64,000 nucleotides of DNA, taken from NCBI GenBank assembly GCA_004298155.1, contig SCRD01000012.1, forward strand, positions 248,001 through 312,000. The letters are read 5' to 3'. Below the pieces are notes generated by a model that did no database searches, was not told the origin of the DNA, and saw nothing but the letters and a program-made list of their open reading frames with translations. Positions 11,600-54,211 of the stretch are shown piece by piece. This stretch comes from Acidobacteriota bacterium. Its GTDB lineage: Bacteria; Acidobacteriota; Terriglobia; UBA7540. The position numbers and the translations under genes were made by a program. Positions within the stretch are counted from its first letter, which is position 1. Each line of letters opens with the position of its first letter.

Positions 11600-12961
11600 G
11601 CGCCTCTTTCATATCCCTTGCAAGCAAGCGTTGTTTGGTTGCAGGTGTTTCCCAAAACGAAGAGACGCCCGCATTGTAACGTAAGCAATTGCGCGATGCG
11701 AGACCGTCGAAGACCTCTTTTGCAGCCTCGCCGCATTATGTATGCTTTATGCGAATGCAGCTCCTCGCCTTCTTTCACTACTTTCTGTGTCGTTGCCATC
11801 CGCCAGCCCTGCCCGTTGAAATCCAGTATCCGCCCTGGGCTAACCCGGTCGGTCGTTGCGAAAGTCCTGAGCGTGAACCCTGAGGGAGGCAGTAATTCGT
11901 TTGCATTGAAATCGTATTTAGTATCGGGGAATAACCGTTGCCCTAATTCGGAAATTTGGAAGAGACACCGTTCAAGTTTCGGTTTCAAAATCAGCCCCGC
12001 ATCAGAACAACCCGGCATGCCCCGAAGGCCAAAAACGCGCACAACGGCTTTCGCTGCGATTCTTTCACGAGACAAAAGGCATGACGCCAGTAGACTCACC
12101 GCTCACATCCGCGTCGCAACAAAACAAGATGGGCGTCACGGTTTTGGTGTATCAAATTGACACAGTCCTAACACGGAGAGCCCAAACGGCGAGTGCGCCC
12201 GTTTCCGGGTGGCGTCTAAAGGCCCGGCAGCCACCTGAGACAACTAGCGTAAGCATTTCATTCTGCAGCACCTGTGGTACGCAAGCGGAAACAGCAGGTA
12301 TGCAATCCGCGCCGTGCCAATCGGCTCTCATCCCGGAACGCTATTGGAAATCTTTCTTCGTTCATAATTCGTGCCTTACCGCGCGCCGCTGTCATTCAGA
12401 CGCAACGTTGTTGATTGCTTCTGTGCATTTGGCCCGGAAGATACCAGCCCTGAAGGTTCTCTGCGGAAAAGCGGGAGAAGCCATAGTTGAAAAGTGATGC
12501 ATCTGGTGCGCAAGGCTCTGCAATTTGTGATCCGAATTCATAGCGTTCCTCCTCGGGGATTTCCTTATTCCATCCGCTCTTCGCCGATAAACCATCGGGC
12601 GGATAATTTCACCCTTTGCTGCAATTGCCGAATTGAGCAAGCCCCGTAAACGCCTTAATGTCATCTTGTAGCAAATGCGGCCCAAAGCAGCCTTAACATT
12701 TTCAGTCTCAGGGGAAGCAGTTGTAATCGCAGTCACCCGCGGAGGGATGATGCCAAACATTTTAAATGAAGGATAGATTGCTTTTTCGAATAGGAGCCGG
12801 AAATCGAGCTCGTGGATACATAAGATCTCGGCCAATGCGACGAAGCCCAGGACCGAACGTGATTCGCAATAACGGCCTGTGTTCCTGACCATGTAACCCA
12901 GGAGCTCACTTTTGGAAGCTGATTAAACACCACACATCTCGAAAACACAATGGAGGGGTTC
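11600..12961. other. 1.36-kb gap without a convincing gene
   Basis: This is the longest stretch in the window with no supported gene. Open frames exist on both strands (for example 11596-12099 minus, 12081-12497 plus and 12392-12892 minus). Their translations are rich in Arg, Cys, Ser and His without domain-like patterns, and they overlap one another antisense. I found no RNA gene, repeat or strong terminator. It must hold the cstA promoter and probably that of the Flp-type pilin; decayed genes are also possible. Confidence 0.5.
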
Positions 12962-13429
12962 ATGAAGAAATTCCTTAAGAGATCATGGCACGAACAGAAA
13001 GGTCAGGATTCAGCGGAGTATGCTCTTATGTTAGTCCTGGTATCCCTGGCCGTCGTCGCAGTACTTCAAGTTATGGAAGTCACTTTGCGTAACACCTATT
13101 CGAGTACGTCTTCAACTATGGCCACAATTGCAGGACACGGCTCGGCCGCTGGATCGAGTCCGGCAGGCCAACCCACATCAGGGAGTGGATCTGGTTCGCC
13201 GGGTGAACCAGATTCTGGCGGTGCTAGTAGCTCGGGTAGTGGCGGTGGTTCGGGTAGCGGACAGAGAACCAGTGGGGGGCATGGGTCCGGCGGTAACCAT
13301 GGAAACAGCGGTGGACATGGATCAAGCATTGGTAATGGCTCCGGTGGCGGAAACGGCTACGGTGGTGGTAATGGCGATACCCATGATGGCCATCAGGATG
13401 GAAGCGGGAAGATCCGAAAAGGTCACTGA
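12962..13429 (+). CDS. Flp-type (type IVb) pilin-like protein with Gly/Ser-rich tail
   Basis: The N-terminal 50 residues match Flp/Fap pilins: a basic leader (MKKFLKRSWHEQK), then GQDSAEYALMLVLVSLAVVAVLQV with the conserved Glu-Tyr at the start of the hydrophobic helix. Instead of ending at about 60 residues like most Flp pilins, the protein continues with some 100 residues of Gly/Ser/His/Asn low complexity and ends in a short basic tail. I chose the ATG at 12962 because GGAGGGG lies just before it. No prepilin peptidase, Tad ATPase or secretin gene is nearby, so assembly machinery would have to be encoded elsewhere. It may be a surface-exposed or adhesive pilin variant. Confidence 0.7.
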   Translation: MKKFLKRSWHEQKGQDSAEYALMLVLVSLAVVAVLQVMEVTLRNTYSSTSSTMATIAGHGSAAGSSPAGQPTSGSGSGSPGEPDSGGASSSGSGGGSGSGQRTSGGHGSGGNHGNSGGHGSSIGNGSGGGNGYGGGNGDTHDGHQDGSGKIRKGH

Positions 13430-13835: not shown

Positions 13836-14942
13836 ATGGAGCTACATGGCAGGCAAATCTTCGCGATCTTCGAAAAACCCCTGGATCTAACGACGAAATT
13901 TGCTCTCGGCCTGGTTAAAGGAAATGGAGCCTCGTCGCATGGAGGGTCGCAGGACGGTTATTACAAGCCCTCTCCGTCAACTCATTCCCCAATAACTTCG
14001 AACCCCTTGATCCCGGCGTTTCTACTGCTGTTGGTCGGATTCCTCGTGCTCTATTCATCTCCAGTCAAGGACTGGTTGGAAAAGACGGATGGACTTCCGA
14101 CCCTGGTTCAGATGTTTTCGTTCTCTGGGAAGAAACAGATGTACGCCTTGCCAGAAGCCGGTGGGAACGTGGGTGTCTGGACAAGGAAGCAGTCCGGTTT
14201 CTATTACTGCCAGGGTGATACTCTTTTCGGTAATGACCCGGGGGAAATGATGACGCAGGATGATGCTCTGACGTCAGGCTACCGGCCCTTCGGCGGCGAA
14301 TACTGCGCGAATAGCCAGCAAATGGTGGCGGCTTCCGACGATTCAACATTCGGAAGCCAGCAACAGCCTGCCCAGGCAAATACGCCTATCCCGCAGGAGG
14401 GGTCGCTTGCCCAAATCCCGACGAAACCACCAGACATTTCAAAGACAGAAGCGGACATTAGAGTATGGGCGATTGAAGAGATTGGCTCTTACTATTGCCC
14501 AGGCGAAGTAATGTTTGGCAATGATCCGGGCAAGTTGATGTCGCAATCTGACGCTCTGATGGCAGGTTACCAACCTTCGGAAAGCCGCTGCACGAATGAC
14601 AATTCGATTGAGGCGCCCGCTGGCAATCTATCTCGAGGGTCTCAAATACCGGTTGCGCCAGCAGTGACCTCCCCGCCTGAACTGGGGTCGCTCGCTCCAC
14701 TTTCAAAGAAGCCACTGGATGTTCCAAAGGCCGAGGCCGTCGTGGAAGTGTGGGTGAAAGCGCAGTTCGGCTTTTATTATTGTCAGAACGACGTTCTGTT
14801 TGGGAACAAGCCGGGCCAGTTGATGACACAAGCAGCGGCCCTGGATTCAGGCTACCAACCCTCTGACAGCCGGTGCACCAAGAACAAGCCAACGCGCGCC
14901 GCCGAAATGTTCCCTGCACGGGCGTTCCCCGGAACGAGATAG
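13836..14942 (+). CDS. Membrane-anchored protein with three Cys-containing tandem repeats
   Basis: A 368-residue protein I cannot name. One hydrophobic segment at about residues 57-75 (PLIPAFLLLLVGFLVLYS) separates a short N-terminal part from a larger C-terminal part. The latter carries three copies of a roughly 43-residue unit at residues 114-157, 210-252 and 305-347. The pattern is VW-x6-G-x-YYC-x4-x2-FGN-x-PG-x2-M-x-Q-x2-AL-x2-GY-x-P-x4-C. Linkers of about 50 residues are also similar between units 2 and 3 (GSLA...K-P-D/L-x-K). Each unit has two Cys (YYC and a terminal RC or YC), hinting at a disulfide or metal site. The MTQ-x-AL-x-GYQP part recalls small Ada-like or thermonuclease-tail modules. 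A strong terminator follows the stop at once. Confidence 0.75.
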   Translation: MELHGRQIFAIFEKPLDLTTKFALGLVKGNGASSHGGSQDGYYKPSPSTHSPITSNPLIPAFLLLLVGFLVLYSSPVKDWLEKTDGLPTLVQMFSFSGKKQMYALPEAGGNVGVWTRKQSGFYYCQGDTLFGNDPGEMMTQDDALTSGYRPFGGEYCANSQQMVAASDDSTFGSQQQPAQANTPIPQEGSLAQIPTKPPDISKTEADIRVWAIEEIGSYYCPGEVMFGNDPGKLMSQSDALMAGYQPSESRCTNDNSIEAPAGNLSRGSQIPVAPAVTSPPELGSLAPLSKKPLDVPKAEAVVEVWVKAQFGFYYCQNDVLFGNKPGQLMTQAAALDSGYQPSDSRCTKNKPTRAAEMFPARAFPGTR

Positions 14943-15300: not shown

Positions 15301-15350
15301 GGTAGTAGCACTATCGGGCGATTGTATAAGAAGGCAATTTACGTTTGAAT
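15301..15350 (+). promoter_or_regulatory. Conserved promoter motif, copy 1
   Basis: A 24-base block at 15301-15324 matches one at 18481-18504 in 20 of 24 positions. It runs into a -35-like TTGTAT (15322-15327), a 17-base spacer and a -10-like TTGAAT (15345-15350). The ATG follows at 15373 after a GGGAGGAAA ribosome binding site. The second copy has the same offsets before a paralogous gene, which argues for a shared activator site plus core promoter. Function is inferred. Confidence 0.6.
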
Positions 15351-15372
15351 CTACATGCGTAGGGAGGAAATC

Positions 15373-16374
15373 ATGGTCGGAGAACAAAGCCCGTTATCCA
15401 TAATTCCAAGTGAATGTTTCCGCTGGCGGCCTCGAGTGCAGTTCATAGATTCATTCAGGACAAAGGCCTTGGCAATTGATTATGCGTTCAAGCACGGTTA
15501 CAACCTGATCGTTGAACGCAATGAGGACCGTACAGCGATTTTTGACGTGCTTCTGGATATTGACGAGACTTGTACGGAAGGCATTAGCCTGGAATTATCA
15601 CAAACAGAAGAAGTGCTGATAGAGCCCGATATGCAAGGCTGGACAAGCCTCATGTTCCTGGCCCTCCTGGGCATTTGTAAGCGTTGCTGGACCGTTATAT
15701 GCCGTTCCTTTCGCAGTATCTGGAACAGGCACATCTATTGGGGCATCCGCGACCTCAAAAAGCACCGTGAATCTGCTGCAAGTTTCTGCTTTTCGCTCGT
15801 CGCACCGCGGTATCGCCATGTCGCCGGCCAGCGCCGCTGGGCGGATGTGCAATTCACTTTTCGCCAAGGGTTAAGCAACTCGTCATCAGTTGTTATCGGT
15901 TTCGCCCGGCAGTTTGCTTCTGCACTTGTTGTCACGTACCAGCAGGAGATCATTCCGTTCATTCGCCGTACCGCCAGCAGGTGCTGGTGGTCAAACTGTG
16001 CAGTCGCTTTTCGGCGCTGGGCGCACAGACACTCGCGAACTCCGGCATCTGATCTCTCCAAACGTTTTGCGGCCTCCATTGACAGCTTGTACACGAACGA
16101 AATTGCCCCGCGGCTGCGCCAGGTTATCGCCCAAAATCAGCAGGAAAGCATGCGAGACGGTGTTCATCGTGTCTGGAGGAGTTCGCTTTTGGCTTTTTCG
16201 AGCCTTGCCAGGCGGTTTGCCGCGGCGGCCGTCGTCTTCTACAACCCTGAGGTCGCCCCATTCATTTTGCACGCTGCCGGAAGCTTCCGGCGCGCTGAGA
16301 TCGGCGATGCTTATCTCCGCAGCGTTGAGGCGGTCACGAAGTCGCGCCATTCAAACACTTCTCAGCTTGGTTGA
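15373..16374 (+). CDS. Unknown-family protein with about 50-residue repeats (paralogue A)
   Basis: A 333-residue protein of an unrecognised family. Residues about 8-110 form a soluble N-terminal domain (IIPSECFRWRP, ALAIDYAFKHGYNLIVERN, AIFDVLLDID, IEPDMQGW). It is clearly related to the whole of the 114-residue protein at 18551. Residues about 130-320 contain roughly four degenerate repeats of about 50 residues, with the pattern F/L-A/S-R/K-x-FA-x6-Y-x2-E-I/V-x-P (examples FARQFASALVVTYQQEIIP and LARRFAAAAVVFYNPEVAP). The C-terminal part is rich in Arg, Trp and aromatic residues and may be amphipathic or membrane-associated. The ATG at 15373 follows GGGAGGAAA. A hairpin (GTTGATT/AATCAAC) spans the stop codon but lacks a T-run. 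Confidence 0.7.
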   Translation: MVGEQSPLSIIPSECFRWRPRVQFIDSFRTKALAIDYAFKHGYNLIVERNEDRTAIFDVLLDIDETCTEGISLELSQTEEVLIEPDMQGWTSLMFLALLGICKRCWTVICRSFRSIWNRHIYWGIRDLKKHRESAASFCFSLVAPRYRHVAGQRRWADVQFTFRQGLSNSSSVVIGFARQFASALVVTYQQEIIPFIRRTASRCWWSNCAVAFRRWAHRHSRTPASDLSKRFAASIDSLYTNEIAPRLRQVIAQNQQESMRDGVHRVWRSSLLAFSSLARRFAAAAVVFYNPEVAPFILHAAGSFRRAEIGDAYLRSVEAVTKSRHSNTSQLG

Positions 16375-16585
16375 TTACCGAACCAATCAACGACCTTCAG
16401 ACCATCTTGCTGGATTTCCATCCTCGGCTCCATGCCCTGAACTGACCGGGTAAAGCGTTACACAACAGCGTTGCACAACCTTGCCCGTGCCTGCTACCCT
16501 ACATCCCCAAAGTTTGTGTTATGGTAGTGCGTCGGCAAGAGCTTCGCAGGTAAGCGATTACCTATTTTCCACCCAACAGGTCAAA

Positions 16586-18349
16586 ATGCCAGGACTGACG
16601 AAACGAGCTTCCCACGGCGCGATTGCAAGCGCCAGGTTCATGATAGCGGCGTCTGTCATCTTTATGGCCATCCCTATGCTCGCCCAGTCGCCGCCGGAGA
16701 CGATCTACTACAACGGCATCATCGTCACAATGTGGCCGTCACATCCTGTGGTGGAAGCCGTGGCAATTAATGGCGGGCGGTTTACGTGCGTCGGCTCAAA
16801 CAAGGATGCGCTCCGTATGGCGGGCCCTGCTACTGTCAAGGTAGATTTGCACGGGCGATGCGTGTTGCCCGGGCTCATTGACAGCCACTGCCATCCCATA
16901 GAGGCGGCCCTTGGTGAGCGGGAAAGTGGGGTGCCACCGCTACACTCCATTGCCGATATTCAGGACTACGTTCGGCATCGAGCAGCGGAGCTGCCGCCCC
17001 GTCACATCATCCTGGTCCCTCACGTTTTTGTAACCCGACTCAAGGAGCGGCGTTACCCGACGCGCGCAGAGCTCGACGCGGCATCGGCAGACCGGTCAGT
17101 GATTGTGGACAACGGCTACGCTTCAGTGCTGAATTCAGCCGCGCTCAAAGACCTTGGAATCTCCAGCTCAACCGCCCAGCCTCCGGACGGAAAAATAATC
17201 AAGGACGCGGAAGGCAGGCCTACCGGCCTCATCCTTGGCGCTCCGGGACTCCTGGTGCGACTCAGGTTCACGCTGCCGGCCACACCCCAAGACTGTCTTT
17301 GGGCGCTCCAAACTATGTTGCATCACTATAATGAGGTGGGCATAACCAGCATCATTGACCGGGCCGAAGGGCCGCCCGGATTTCGCGCCTACCAGCAGCT
17401 TGACCGCGAAGGCAAGCTTACCGCCAGGTGCTACGTAACATATGCCATTGATGCGCAGGGTACGTCAGCCGATGTACGCAACACAGTCCTTCGAATCCCT
17501 TTCCTCACTGGCTGGGGAGACGATTGGTATCGTGTCGGATCTCTGAAAACTTTTGTTGACGGCGGTATCTGCATGGGGACCGCCTATCTTAGAGCGCCCT
17601 ACGGAACCAATACCTCGATCTATGGCTTCCAGGATTCGCATTACCGAGGTGTACTCCGTGTGCCGGAAGCAAACCTAGTTGCCATGGCGAAGACGGCGGA
17701 CGAACTCGGCTGGCAGATGACCGCACACACTACCGGCGGCGGCGCCACCGATCTTCTGCTGCAGGCCTATCAGGCGGCCAACCGCGAAAAGTCGATCCGC
17801 GATCTTCGCTTCACGGTAACCCACGGAGATTTCCCAGACCCTCACGCTATCCGGTTGGCTAAAGACCTCGGAGTCTCCTTCGATAGCCAGCCGGCGTGGC
17901 TCTACCTGGACGGGTCCGCCGTCAAAGACGTTTTTGGGCCGGCTCGAACGGCAAACTTTATTCCACTTGCCTCGCTATTTCGGGCCGGAGTTGTGGTGGC
18001 AGGGGGCTCCGACCACATGATCGGGCTTGATCCAAACACGTCAACCAATCCCTATAACCCCTTCCTGGGCATGTGGATTGCCATCACGCGGAATACCGTG
18101 GACGGCACCGTTATCAACTCCGCCCAGCGTATTAGCCGAGAGCAGGCCCTCCGGATGTACACGCTTAACGGGGCCTACCTCTCCTTTGACGAAAAAAAGA
18201 AGGGATCCATCGAACCCGGCAAACTGGCTGATATGGTAGTGATCTCGAAGAACTACCTCTCCTGCCCTGTTGATCAAATCAAGAGTATACAGGCGCTGCG
18301 GACCATCGTGGGAGGGAGGGTGGTCTTTGATCGTCTGCATTGGCAGTAG
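16586..18349 (+). CDS. Exported amidohydrolase family protein (YtcJ-like)
   Basis: A 587-residue member of the metal-dependent amidohydrolase superfamily (amidohydrolase 3/YtcJ type). The order is: signal peptide (ARFMIAASVIFMAIPMLAQ), a beta-sandwich start (YYNGIIVTMWPSHPVVEAVAI), and the metal-binding DSHCHP after VLPGLI. AHTTGGGATD and VTHGDFPD carry further metal-site histidines, SDHMIGLDPN carries the catalytic Asp, and the terminal SIEPGKLADMVVI closes the beta domain. I start at the ATG at 16586, just ahead of the signal peptide; the frame is open upstream to a TTG. The substrate is unknown. It lies between the two paralogous unknown genes and could have been inserted there or belong with them. 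Confidence 0.85.
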   Translation: MPGLTKRASHGAIASARFMIAASVIFMAIPMLAQSPPETIYYNGIIVTMWPSHPVVEAVAINGGRFTCVGSNKDALRMAGPATVKVDLHGRCVLPGLIDSHCHPIEAALGERESGVPPLHSIADIQDYVRHRAAELPPRHIILVPHVFVTRLKERRYPTRAELDAASADRSVIVDNGYASVLNSAALKDLGISSSTAQPPDGKIIKDAEGRPTGLILGAPGLLVRLRFTLPATPQDCLWALQTMLHHYNEVGITSIIDRAEGPPGFRAYQQLDREGKLTARCYVTYAIDAQGTSADVRNTVLRIPFLTGWGDDWYRVGSLKTFVDGGICMGTAYLRAPYGTNTSIYGFQDSHYRGVLRVPEANLVAMAKTADELGWQMTAHTTGGGATDLLLQAYQAANREKSIRDLRFTVTHGDFPDPHAIRLAKDLGVSFDSQPAWLYLDGSAVKDVFGPARTANFIPLASLFRAGVVVAGGSDHMIGLDPNTSTNPYNPFLGMWIAITRNTVDGTVINSAQRISREQALRMYTLNGAYLSFDEKKKGSIEPGKLADMVVISKNYLSCPVDQIKSIQALRTIVGGRVVFDRLHWQ

Positions 18350-18480
18350 CCTTCGGTCGTGGCAACAATGCTCACATACTATAGACACTACAGCACTAAG
18401 CTCGCAAGTATTCACCAGCCATTCTGCCAGGACCGCACCCCCCTAAAGGGGGAGAACCACTCCTCGAAGGCGCAATCGAA

Positions 18481-18530
18481 GGTTGTAGTACCATCGGACG
18501 ATTGCAAACATTTGCATATATTGGTTCAAT
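18481..18530 (+). promoter_or_regulatory. Conserved promoter motif, copy 2
   Basis: This is the counterpart of the motif at 15301. The 24-base block is at 18481-18504, TTGCAA at 18502-18507, a 17-base spacer, and TTCAAT at 18525-18530. It is followed by GGGAGGAAA and the ATG at 18551. Spacing from block to -35 and to -10 is identical in the two copies, while the DNA upstream of the block is not similar. Confidence 0.6.
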
Positions 18531-18550
18531 AGGCCTCGGGAGGAAACATT

Positions 18551-18895
18551 ATGACGAATGCAACGAGCACAATCGCACTGATCCCAAGCACGGAATTCAA
18601 GTGGACTGCCCAGATTCAGTACAAGGAAAGCCTGCCGAGCCGTGATGCAGCCATTCGTTATGCCGGCCTGCACGGATGCAACCTGATCGTGAAGTACGAT
18701 CGGCGGAGCGGGCCACTGTTCGACGTAATGCATGACCCAAACCTCGCCTATGAGTCCGGAACCGCCGTCAATCCAGTAGAAACAGTGCGCGTAGAGATCG
18801 AGCCCGAACGCCTCGGCTGGAGGAAATCGATGGCTCGCGGCGTTTTTGGTCTATTCGCCCGAAGGCTTGCGTCTGCCGCAAGCGTATCCCACTGA
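18551..18895 (+). CDS. Short paralogue B of the unknown family, probably truncated
   Basis: A 114-residue protein aligning end to end with residues 8-110 of the protein at 15373. Shared features are IPSTEFKW/IPSECFRW, AIRYAGLHGCNLIV/AIDYAFKHGYNLIV, LFDVMHDPN/IFDVLLDID and IEPERLGW/IEPDMQGW. It ends with FARRLASAASVSH, which looks like the beginning of one of the repeats of the longer paralogue (LARRFAAAAVVFY). Just after the stop, another reading frame encodes KERIAPARTP, resembling the repeat continuation TNEIAPRLRQ. A frameshift may therefore have shortened the gene. The promoter and ribosome binding site look intact, so the short form may still be made. Confidence 0.65.
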   Translation: MTNATSTIALIPSTEFKWTAQIQYKESLPSRDAAIRYAGLHGCNLIVKYDRRSGPLFDVMHDPNLAYESGTAVNPVETVRVEIEPERLGWRKSMARGVFGLFARRLASAASVSH

Positions 18896-53836: not shown

Positions 53837-54211
53837 ATGATTATAGGCATTCGTCTGAGGAAACTGCGTGAAGAGCGCAAACTTTCCCAGGGCGACATTG
53901 AGAAACGCACGGGACTCCTGCGCTGCTATATTTCCCGGGTCGAGAACGGGCACACGGTGCCTTCTCTCGAGACCTTGGAGCGATTGGCTGCAGCCATGGA
54001 GATCCCCCTCTATCAGCTGTTTTATGAGGGGGAAAGACCACCGGACCTCCCTAATCTGACCCAGCGCAAGAGTACCGACGAGCTGGCCATGGAGATTCCG
54101 GCAGACCGTGATTCGCGGTTTTTCCAGAAAGTCAAGCGACTGCTTGGCAACATTAATGACCGCGACCGACGGCTGCTGCTCTACATGGCACAGAAGTTAG
54201 CGAATCGTTAG
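53837..54211 (+). CDS. XRE-family transcriptional regulator
   Basis: A 124-residue protein. Residues 5-62 are a Cro/C1-type helix-turn-helix (IRLRKLREERKLSQGDIEKRTGLLRCYISRVENGHTVPSLETLERLAAAM). The C-terminal part has a short charged region and a final helix (KVKRLLGNINDRDRRLLLYMAQKLA). No ligand domain is recognised. The target is unknown. It is divergent to the ECF sigma operon and converges on guaA. Confidence 0.85.
   Translation: MIIGIRLRKLREERKLSQGDIEKRTGLLRCYISRVENGHTVPSLETLERLAAAMEIPLYQLFYEGERPPDLPNLTQRKSTDELAMEIPADRDSRFFQKVKRLLGNINDRDRRLLLYMAQKLANR

Follow-up and report, generated by a model that had tools for sequence, protein, structure and literature searches.

A conserved dyad at the -35 region of two paralogous genes of an uncultured Acidobacteriota bacterium represents a diverged version of a promoter element found across the bacterial family and is probably read by an XRE-type regulator

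Two related genes of an uncultured soil bacterium of the Acidobacteriota are each preceded by a nearly identical 24-bp block, which raises the question of what reads this block and whether it serves these two genes only. To our knowledge, little is known about gene regulation in this family. The genes lie 3.2 kb apart in the window, a term used here for the whole stretch of 64,000 nucleotides that was analysed. The long paralog (15373 to 16374, + strand; 333 aa) has a genus-specific N-terminal domain and a variable C-terminal part, while the short paralog (18551 to 18895, + strand; 114 aa) consists of the N-terminal domain alone; the ATG starts are at 15373 and 18551. The N-terminal ~100 residues of the two proteins were 31 to 33% identical (E = 9e-13), in agreement with the relationship claimed in an earlier note on this DNA. 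Of 399 genomes of the class, only 3 contained the gene family, and all of these belong to a single genus out of 136; both paralogs were present in each of the three species. Comparison of both paralogs with Pfam and NCBIfam detected nothing above the cut-off. The short protein was modelled as a single domain of ~60 residues with a predicted beta-beta-alpha-beta-beta arrangement; the model was modest (pLDDT of 61 overall and ~80 in the core, residues 10 to 60), and a Foldseek search of the PDB with this low-confidence model gave no match at an E value of ≤0.001. The C-terminal part of the long protein (window 15682 to 16374) contained degenerate repeats around Y..E[IV]AP, and this part varied among orthologs, whose total length ranged from 281 to 333 aa. 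The protein encoded at 13836 to 14942 of the window had three repeats of the form W..Q.GFYYC..D.LFGN.PG..M.Q..AL..GY.P...C and no Pfam match above the cut-off; in genome G001, a gene with a similar ending sits upstream of the long gene.

The promoter regions were examined by direct reading. The block was located at 15301 to 15324 (+ strand; GGTAGTAGCACTATCGGGCGATTG) for the long gene and at 18481 to 18504 (+ strand; GGTTGTAGTACCATCGGACGATTG) for the short gene, and the two copies were identical at 20 of 24 positions. The long-gene block comprises a half-site (GTAG-TA), a dyad (GCAC-TATC-GGGC) and a GATTG overlapping the -35 region; the short-gene block comprises a half-site (GTTG-TA), a dyad (GTAC-CATC-GGAC) and a GATTG. 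The second half-sites of both dyads, GGGC and GGAC, are diverged. A -35-like hexamer was read at 15322 to 15327 (TTGTAT, + strand) and at 18502 to 18507 (TTGCAA, + strand), and a -10-like hexamer of the form TTSAAT followed exactly 20 nt after each block, at 15345 to 15350 (TTGAAT, + strand) and 18525 to 18530 (TTCAAT, + strand), giving a 17-nt spacer between -35 and -10 in both promoters. The usual A at position 2 of the -10 hexamer was missing in both. A ribosome-binding site, GGGAGGAAA, was present at 15362 to 15370 and at 18538 to 18546 (both + strand). These readings confirmed the coordinates and the common offset given in the earlier note, as well as its statement that the DNA upstream of the block is dissimilar, with 14 matches in the 60 nt directly 5' of the blocks. 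The best ungapped 24-mer common to both 200-nt upstream regions had 20 of 24 matches, in comparison to 14 to 17 of 24 (maximum, 17) for 60 random pairs of 200-nt stretches from the window. A sigma54 promoter was rejected on visual inspection because the distance between GG and GC did not fit. No Rfam model matched the window at the gathering threshold, and the block also lies 5' of the -10 hexamer; the exact block was not found in viral contigs.

Conservation of this arrangement was assessed in the six orthologous promoters of three congeneric genomes. The block and the exact 20-nt gap to the -10 hexamer were kept in all six, with TTSAAT or TCTAAT as the -10-like sequence and the TTG of the -35 hexamer in every case. 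Block identity ranged from 16 to 23 of 24 positions over all pairs, while identity in the 20-nt spacer was 4 to 11 of 20, except for one close pair with 18 of 20, and the flanks of the block also diverged. Because the block and its spacing are kept while most spacers and flanks diverge, purifying selection on a putative binding site, as suggested in the earlier note, is supported by these comparisons. The genes are paralogs and near neighbours, which could suit a reading of the block as a duplication leftover, or else as a mobile-element end or a chance similarity. However, the DNA around the block is at background level, the proteins are only 33% identical and the block is conserved in all three species. 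Furthermore, the two paralogs of G002 sit on different contigs and the block is still present at both, so that a recent tandem duplication does not account for it. A leftover or chance origin thus has next to no probability, and the best explanation is that the paralogs kept their operator after the proteins had diverged to about 33% identity.

The earlier note had also proposed that the two genes are under one dedicated regulator. When up to 3 mismatches were permitted, three occurrences of the block were found in the 5.2-Mb genome: the two window sites, which were the only intergenic copies, and one inside an NAD-kinase-like reading frame. This near restriction to the pair would be in keeping with a dedicated regulator, yet the block is built around a dyad, and less similar versions of this dyad are present elsewhere. 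A search pattern derived from the block (TAGYACY-N3-GKRC-NN-TTG-N20-TNNAAT) was run on 101 related genomes, in which the strict pattern detected 23 sites and the reversed pattern detected none. Of the 23 sites, 20 were from the family to which the window belongs. The promoter element of the family has the form GTAC-N4-GTAC-nnTTG-N20-TAnnnT, and the window block is a diverged copy of it; the ideal operator and promoter form is best explained as TAGTAC-N4-GTACTA-TTG-N20-TAtaAT. A perfect TATAAT was present at the predicted -10 place in one relative (L056). With 2 mismatches permitted, 33 matches were obtained versus 29 in the reversed control, a mixture of true and chance sites. Single sites from this looser pattern are weak because the control matches nearly as many overall, and only sites that recurred in relatives, or that scored at least 18 and had a -10 hexamer, were counted from it. 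With 3 mismatches, matches were mostly in coding sequence and at about the control rate. A literature search that stopped short of full texts did not find a description of the motif.

A matrix trained only on sites from other genomes was utilized to scan 844 kb of this genome, consisting of the window and further stretches, a sample partly chosen around known sites; the portion from contig C12 (~464 kb, including the window) was sampled as blocks and contained four sites. Ten sites scored above 18, in comparison to none in the reversed control. Nine of the ten had a -10-like hexamer, at a distance of 20 nt in eight cases and 21 nt at the promoter of an XRE regulator gene; besides the XRE promoter, these nine promoter-like sites comprised both window sites and six further ones. 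The distance from dyad to promoter was therefore fixed, at 20 nt in all six orthologs and in eight of the nine top promoter-like sites. Because this spacing is invariant and a perfect TATAAT occupies the corresponding position in the relative L056, the predicted -10 hexamers at 15345 to 15350 and 18525 to 18530 are favoured as the true sites. A third, weak paralog (C12:72214), detected at E = 3e-27 with a profile that itself included it, had no operator at the expected place, and the surrounding stretch contained no site with a score above 11. Overall, the same element at the same spacing precedes a minimum of seven further genes of this genome, which are unrelated to the pair, and the element is found at many genes of relatives that do not carry the paralog family. 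A regulator dedicated to the two paralogs is consequently very improbable. The earlier note had named wide occurrence upstream of unrelated genes as evidence against its proposal; such occurrence was found for the dyad element, in other genera as well as here, and it removes the dedicated regulator only. The best explanation is that the two window genes belong to a regulon that comprises some ten promoters or more in this genome.

The genes downstream of the element sites were unrelated to one another. They encoded small membrane proteins, receiver-like proteins, a membrane protein ahead of a receiver, a sigma54-type response regulator, the XRE regulator, a Flp pilin in G002 and a secreted, repeat-rich peptide with a multi-pass membrane protein encoded next after it. 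Sites recurred at orthologous genes in two or three congeneric species at C28:86325, C12:440499, C13:19554, C23:71974 and C28:183756. From these targets we infer a role of the regulon at the cell surface or in signalling. Because the other targets share the element, our working guess is that the two window proteins, like most of them, have a function in signalling or at or close to the cell envelope. No operator was found at the Flp-pilin-like gene of the window (12950 to 13429), whose product has a glycine/serine-rich tail; the Flp pilin gene of G002 (L199) has one. At L052, L053 and L054 (genus g3 of the family), the operator lies 5' of a gene for a small secreted peptide with tandem repeats (IGTSPVPTGGP, GIGGTPAPIPPM), followed by a gene for a multi-pass membrane protein; the peptide resembles the precursor of a signalling peptide, and the membrane protein would be its receptor-like partner.

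The XRE gene was of particular relevance to the identity of the factor that reads the dyad. The first-type XRE gene of this genome (G000:C28:183856) encodes a 130-aa HTH_3 protein (PF01381; E = 1.3e-13; 51 bits versus a gathering threshold of 23), and a homolog was found in all 39 genomes of the family. A tandem array, GTAC-N4-GTAC-TA-GTAC-N4-GTAC-nnTTG, was present 5' of the XRE gene in 23 of 31 loci examined. Four of the eight loci without an array were clear second-type paralogs, and the array was absent from all clear second-type (n = 7) and third-type (n = 3) promoters; when the clear second-type loci were set aside, 27 loci remained and 23 of these had the array, the type assignment being close for several of the 27. 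Array scores were 18 to 22, and random stretches rarely scored above 15. The operator at the regulator's own gene was hence conserved across genera. A matrix was then built from the 23 XRE promoters only, with no promoter of the two paralogs included, and among ~128,000 window positions it ranked the long-gene block first and the short-gene block fourth. As the scores of these blocks, 13.7 and 9.8, are well below the 21 to 37 of the training sites, the window sites are clearly diverged. This ranking is the strongest non-circular link between the window blocks and the XRE gene. Across the family, the XRE proteins have a nearly invariant recognition helix, which fits a conserved operator, and the HTH matched the SinR and DdrO structures. 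A second-type XRE/HTH_3 gene is located in the window itself (53837 to 54211, + strand), with a recognition helix identical to that of the first type and no operator array at its own promoter. Because the helix is common to both types, either the first- or the second-type protein may be the binder. We infer that an XRE protein binds the dyad, and a DNA-binding XRE regulator probably reads the block.

The element was also sought outside the family. In a search of one genome per species (84,980 species), the strict element matched 93 stretches; among the matches listed (80 of 93), many were from Chloroflexota and Lachnospiraceae and five were from one Elusimicrobiaceae genome (SI047_bin93; L130, L134, L141, L144 and L179). 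In Anaerolineae the element occurred with a perfect or near-perfect -10 hexamer before TadE-like genes. In Chloroflexota, the dyad, TTG, 20 nt and a TATAAT-like hexamer were observed 5' of TadE-like pilus genes (L113, L158 and L172) and, by eye, the same layout 5' of subtilisin-like genes (L178 and L180). An XRE of this type was not found near the Chloroflexota or Lachnospiraceae sites in the contigs read, and because the layout is present there other proteins may use such dyads. The dyad could accordingly be read by another dimeric activator, for example of the NarL/FixJ or LuxR type, with the XRE gene as one more target: a class II position with fixed spacing is typical of these activators, and the targets include receiver-domain proteins and a sigma54 response regulator. 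However, the XRE gene was the only transcription factor gene with a tandem array, across many genera, and no NarL/LuxR-type gene adjoined the sites that were read. Another activator is thus doubtful, if to be taken seriously. The GTAC dyad with its 4-nt spacer also resembles the cyanobacterial LexA box, a string (RGTACNNNDGTWCB) that occurs in PMC3091678, and one match, in Nostoc, was 5' of a DinB-like gene. Unlike that box, the dyad here is fixed relative to the -10 hexamer and its targets are not SOS genes; no SOS gene was present among the targets read in the family. A crude motif scan of the 844 kb sampled found no recA, lexA or dinB gene, and hence none of their promoters. A LexA-type SOS box is highly unlikely.

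We consider it somewhat more probable than its negation that a dimeric XRE/HTH_3 protein of the CI/SinR type binds the dyad at a sigma70-type -35 region, activates transcription and controls a regulon that includes the window genes. The block would then be a putative transcription factor operator overlapping the -35 region of a sigma70-type promoter, and if the -10 hexamer is set at -12 to -7, the centre of the dyad falls at about -43.5 and the dyad abuts the -35 TTG. The factor would most likely be the product of G000:C28:183856 and its orthologs; it would probably activate by contacting sigma region 4, as does lambda CI at PRM, and would regulate its own gene through two tandem copies of the dyad, the genus-specific window genes having been recruited into its regulon. 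A class II activator would fit because the placement of the dyad is fixed and the core promoter is weak. Lambda CI at PRM is the model of an HTH_3 class II activator and resembles the proposed system in its dimeric Cro/CI-type HTH, a dyad near -42 beside the -35 region and autoregulation via tandem operators; it differs in operator sequence, and here the regulon is chromosomal, with binding and activation only predicted. The closest solved relative of the XRE HTH by sequence is SinR of Bacillus subtilis (PDB 1b0n and 3zkc; E = 6e-9, residues 3 to 96). SinR controls genes for surface properties and multicellularity, but it is a repressor with a different operator, and the XRE protein was far below the NCBIfam cut-off of SlrR, a SinR relative. 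Repression was considered in this light: an XRE protein bound to a dyad that abuts the -35 TTG could block this region and keep the genes silent until release, and the HTH_3 relatives SinR, RstR and DdrO repress. Repressors tolerate variable placement, however, whereas the dyad here is 20 nt from the -10 hexamer nearly everywhere, and the weak -10 and -35 hexamers of the window suit an activated promoter. Repression is therefore unlikely, and activation by the XRE protein is the role that we assign to it provisionally.

These results have implications for the family as a whole. A broader proposal, which we advance as a tentative possibility, is that a conserved regulon built on TAGTAC-N4-GTACTA-TTG-N20-TATAAT is under the control of an undescribed XRE-type activator throughout the uncultured Acidobacteriota family, and that orphan genes of single lineages with surface and signalling roles, the window pair among them, continue to be drawn into it. 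A control system that crosses phyla is only a possibility, the count of 93 stretches having no background rate beside it; if true, the identical layout before Tad-pilus-type genes in Chloroflexota would belong to such a system. Within the family, a defined operator with a candidate regulator would turn scattered "hypothetical" genes into one testable regulon and would open a way to the function of the two orphan genes, which are unrecognised by the databases searched, as lineage-specific genes that may have been wired into an older control circuit.
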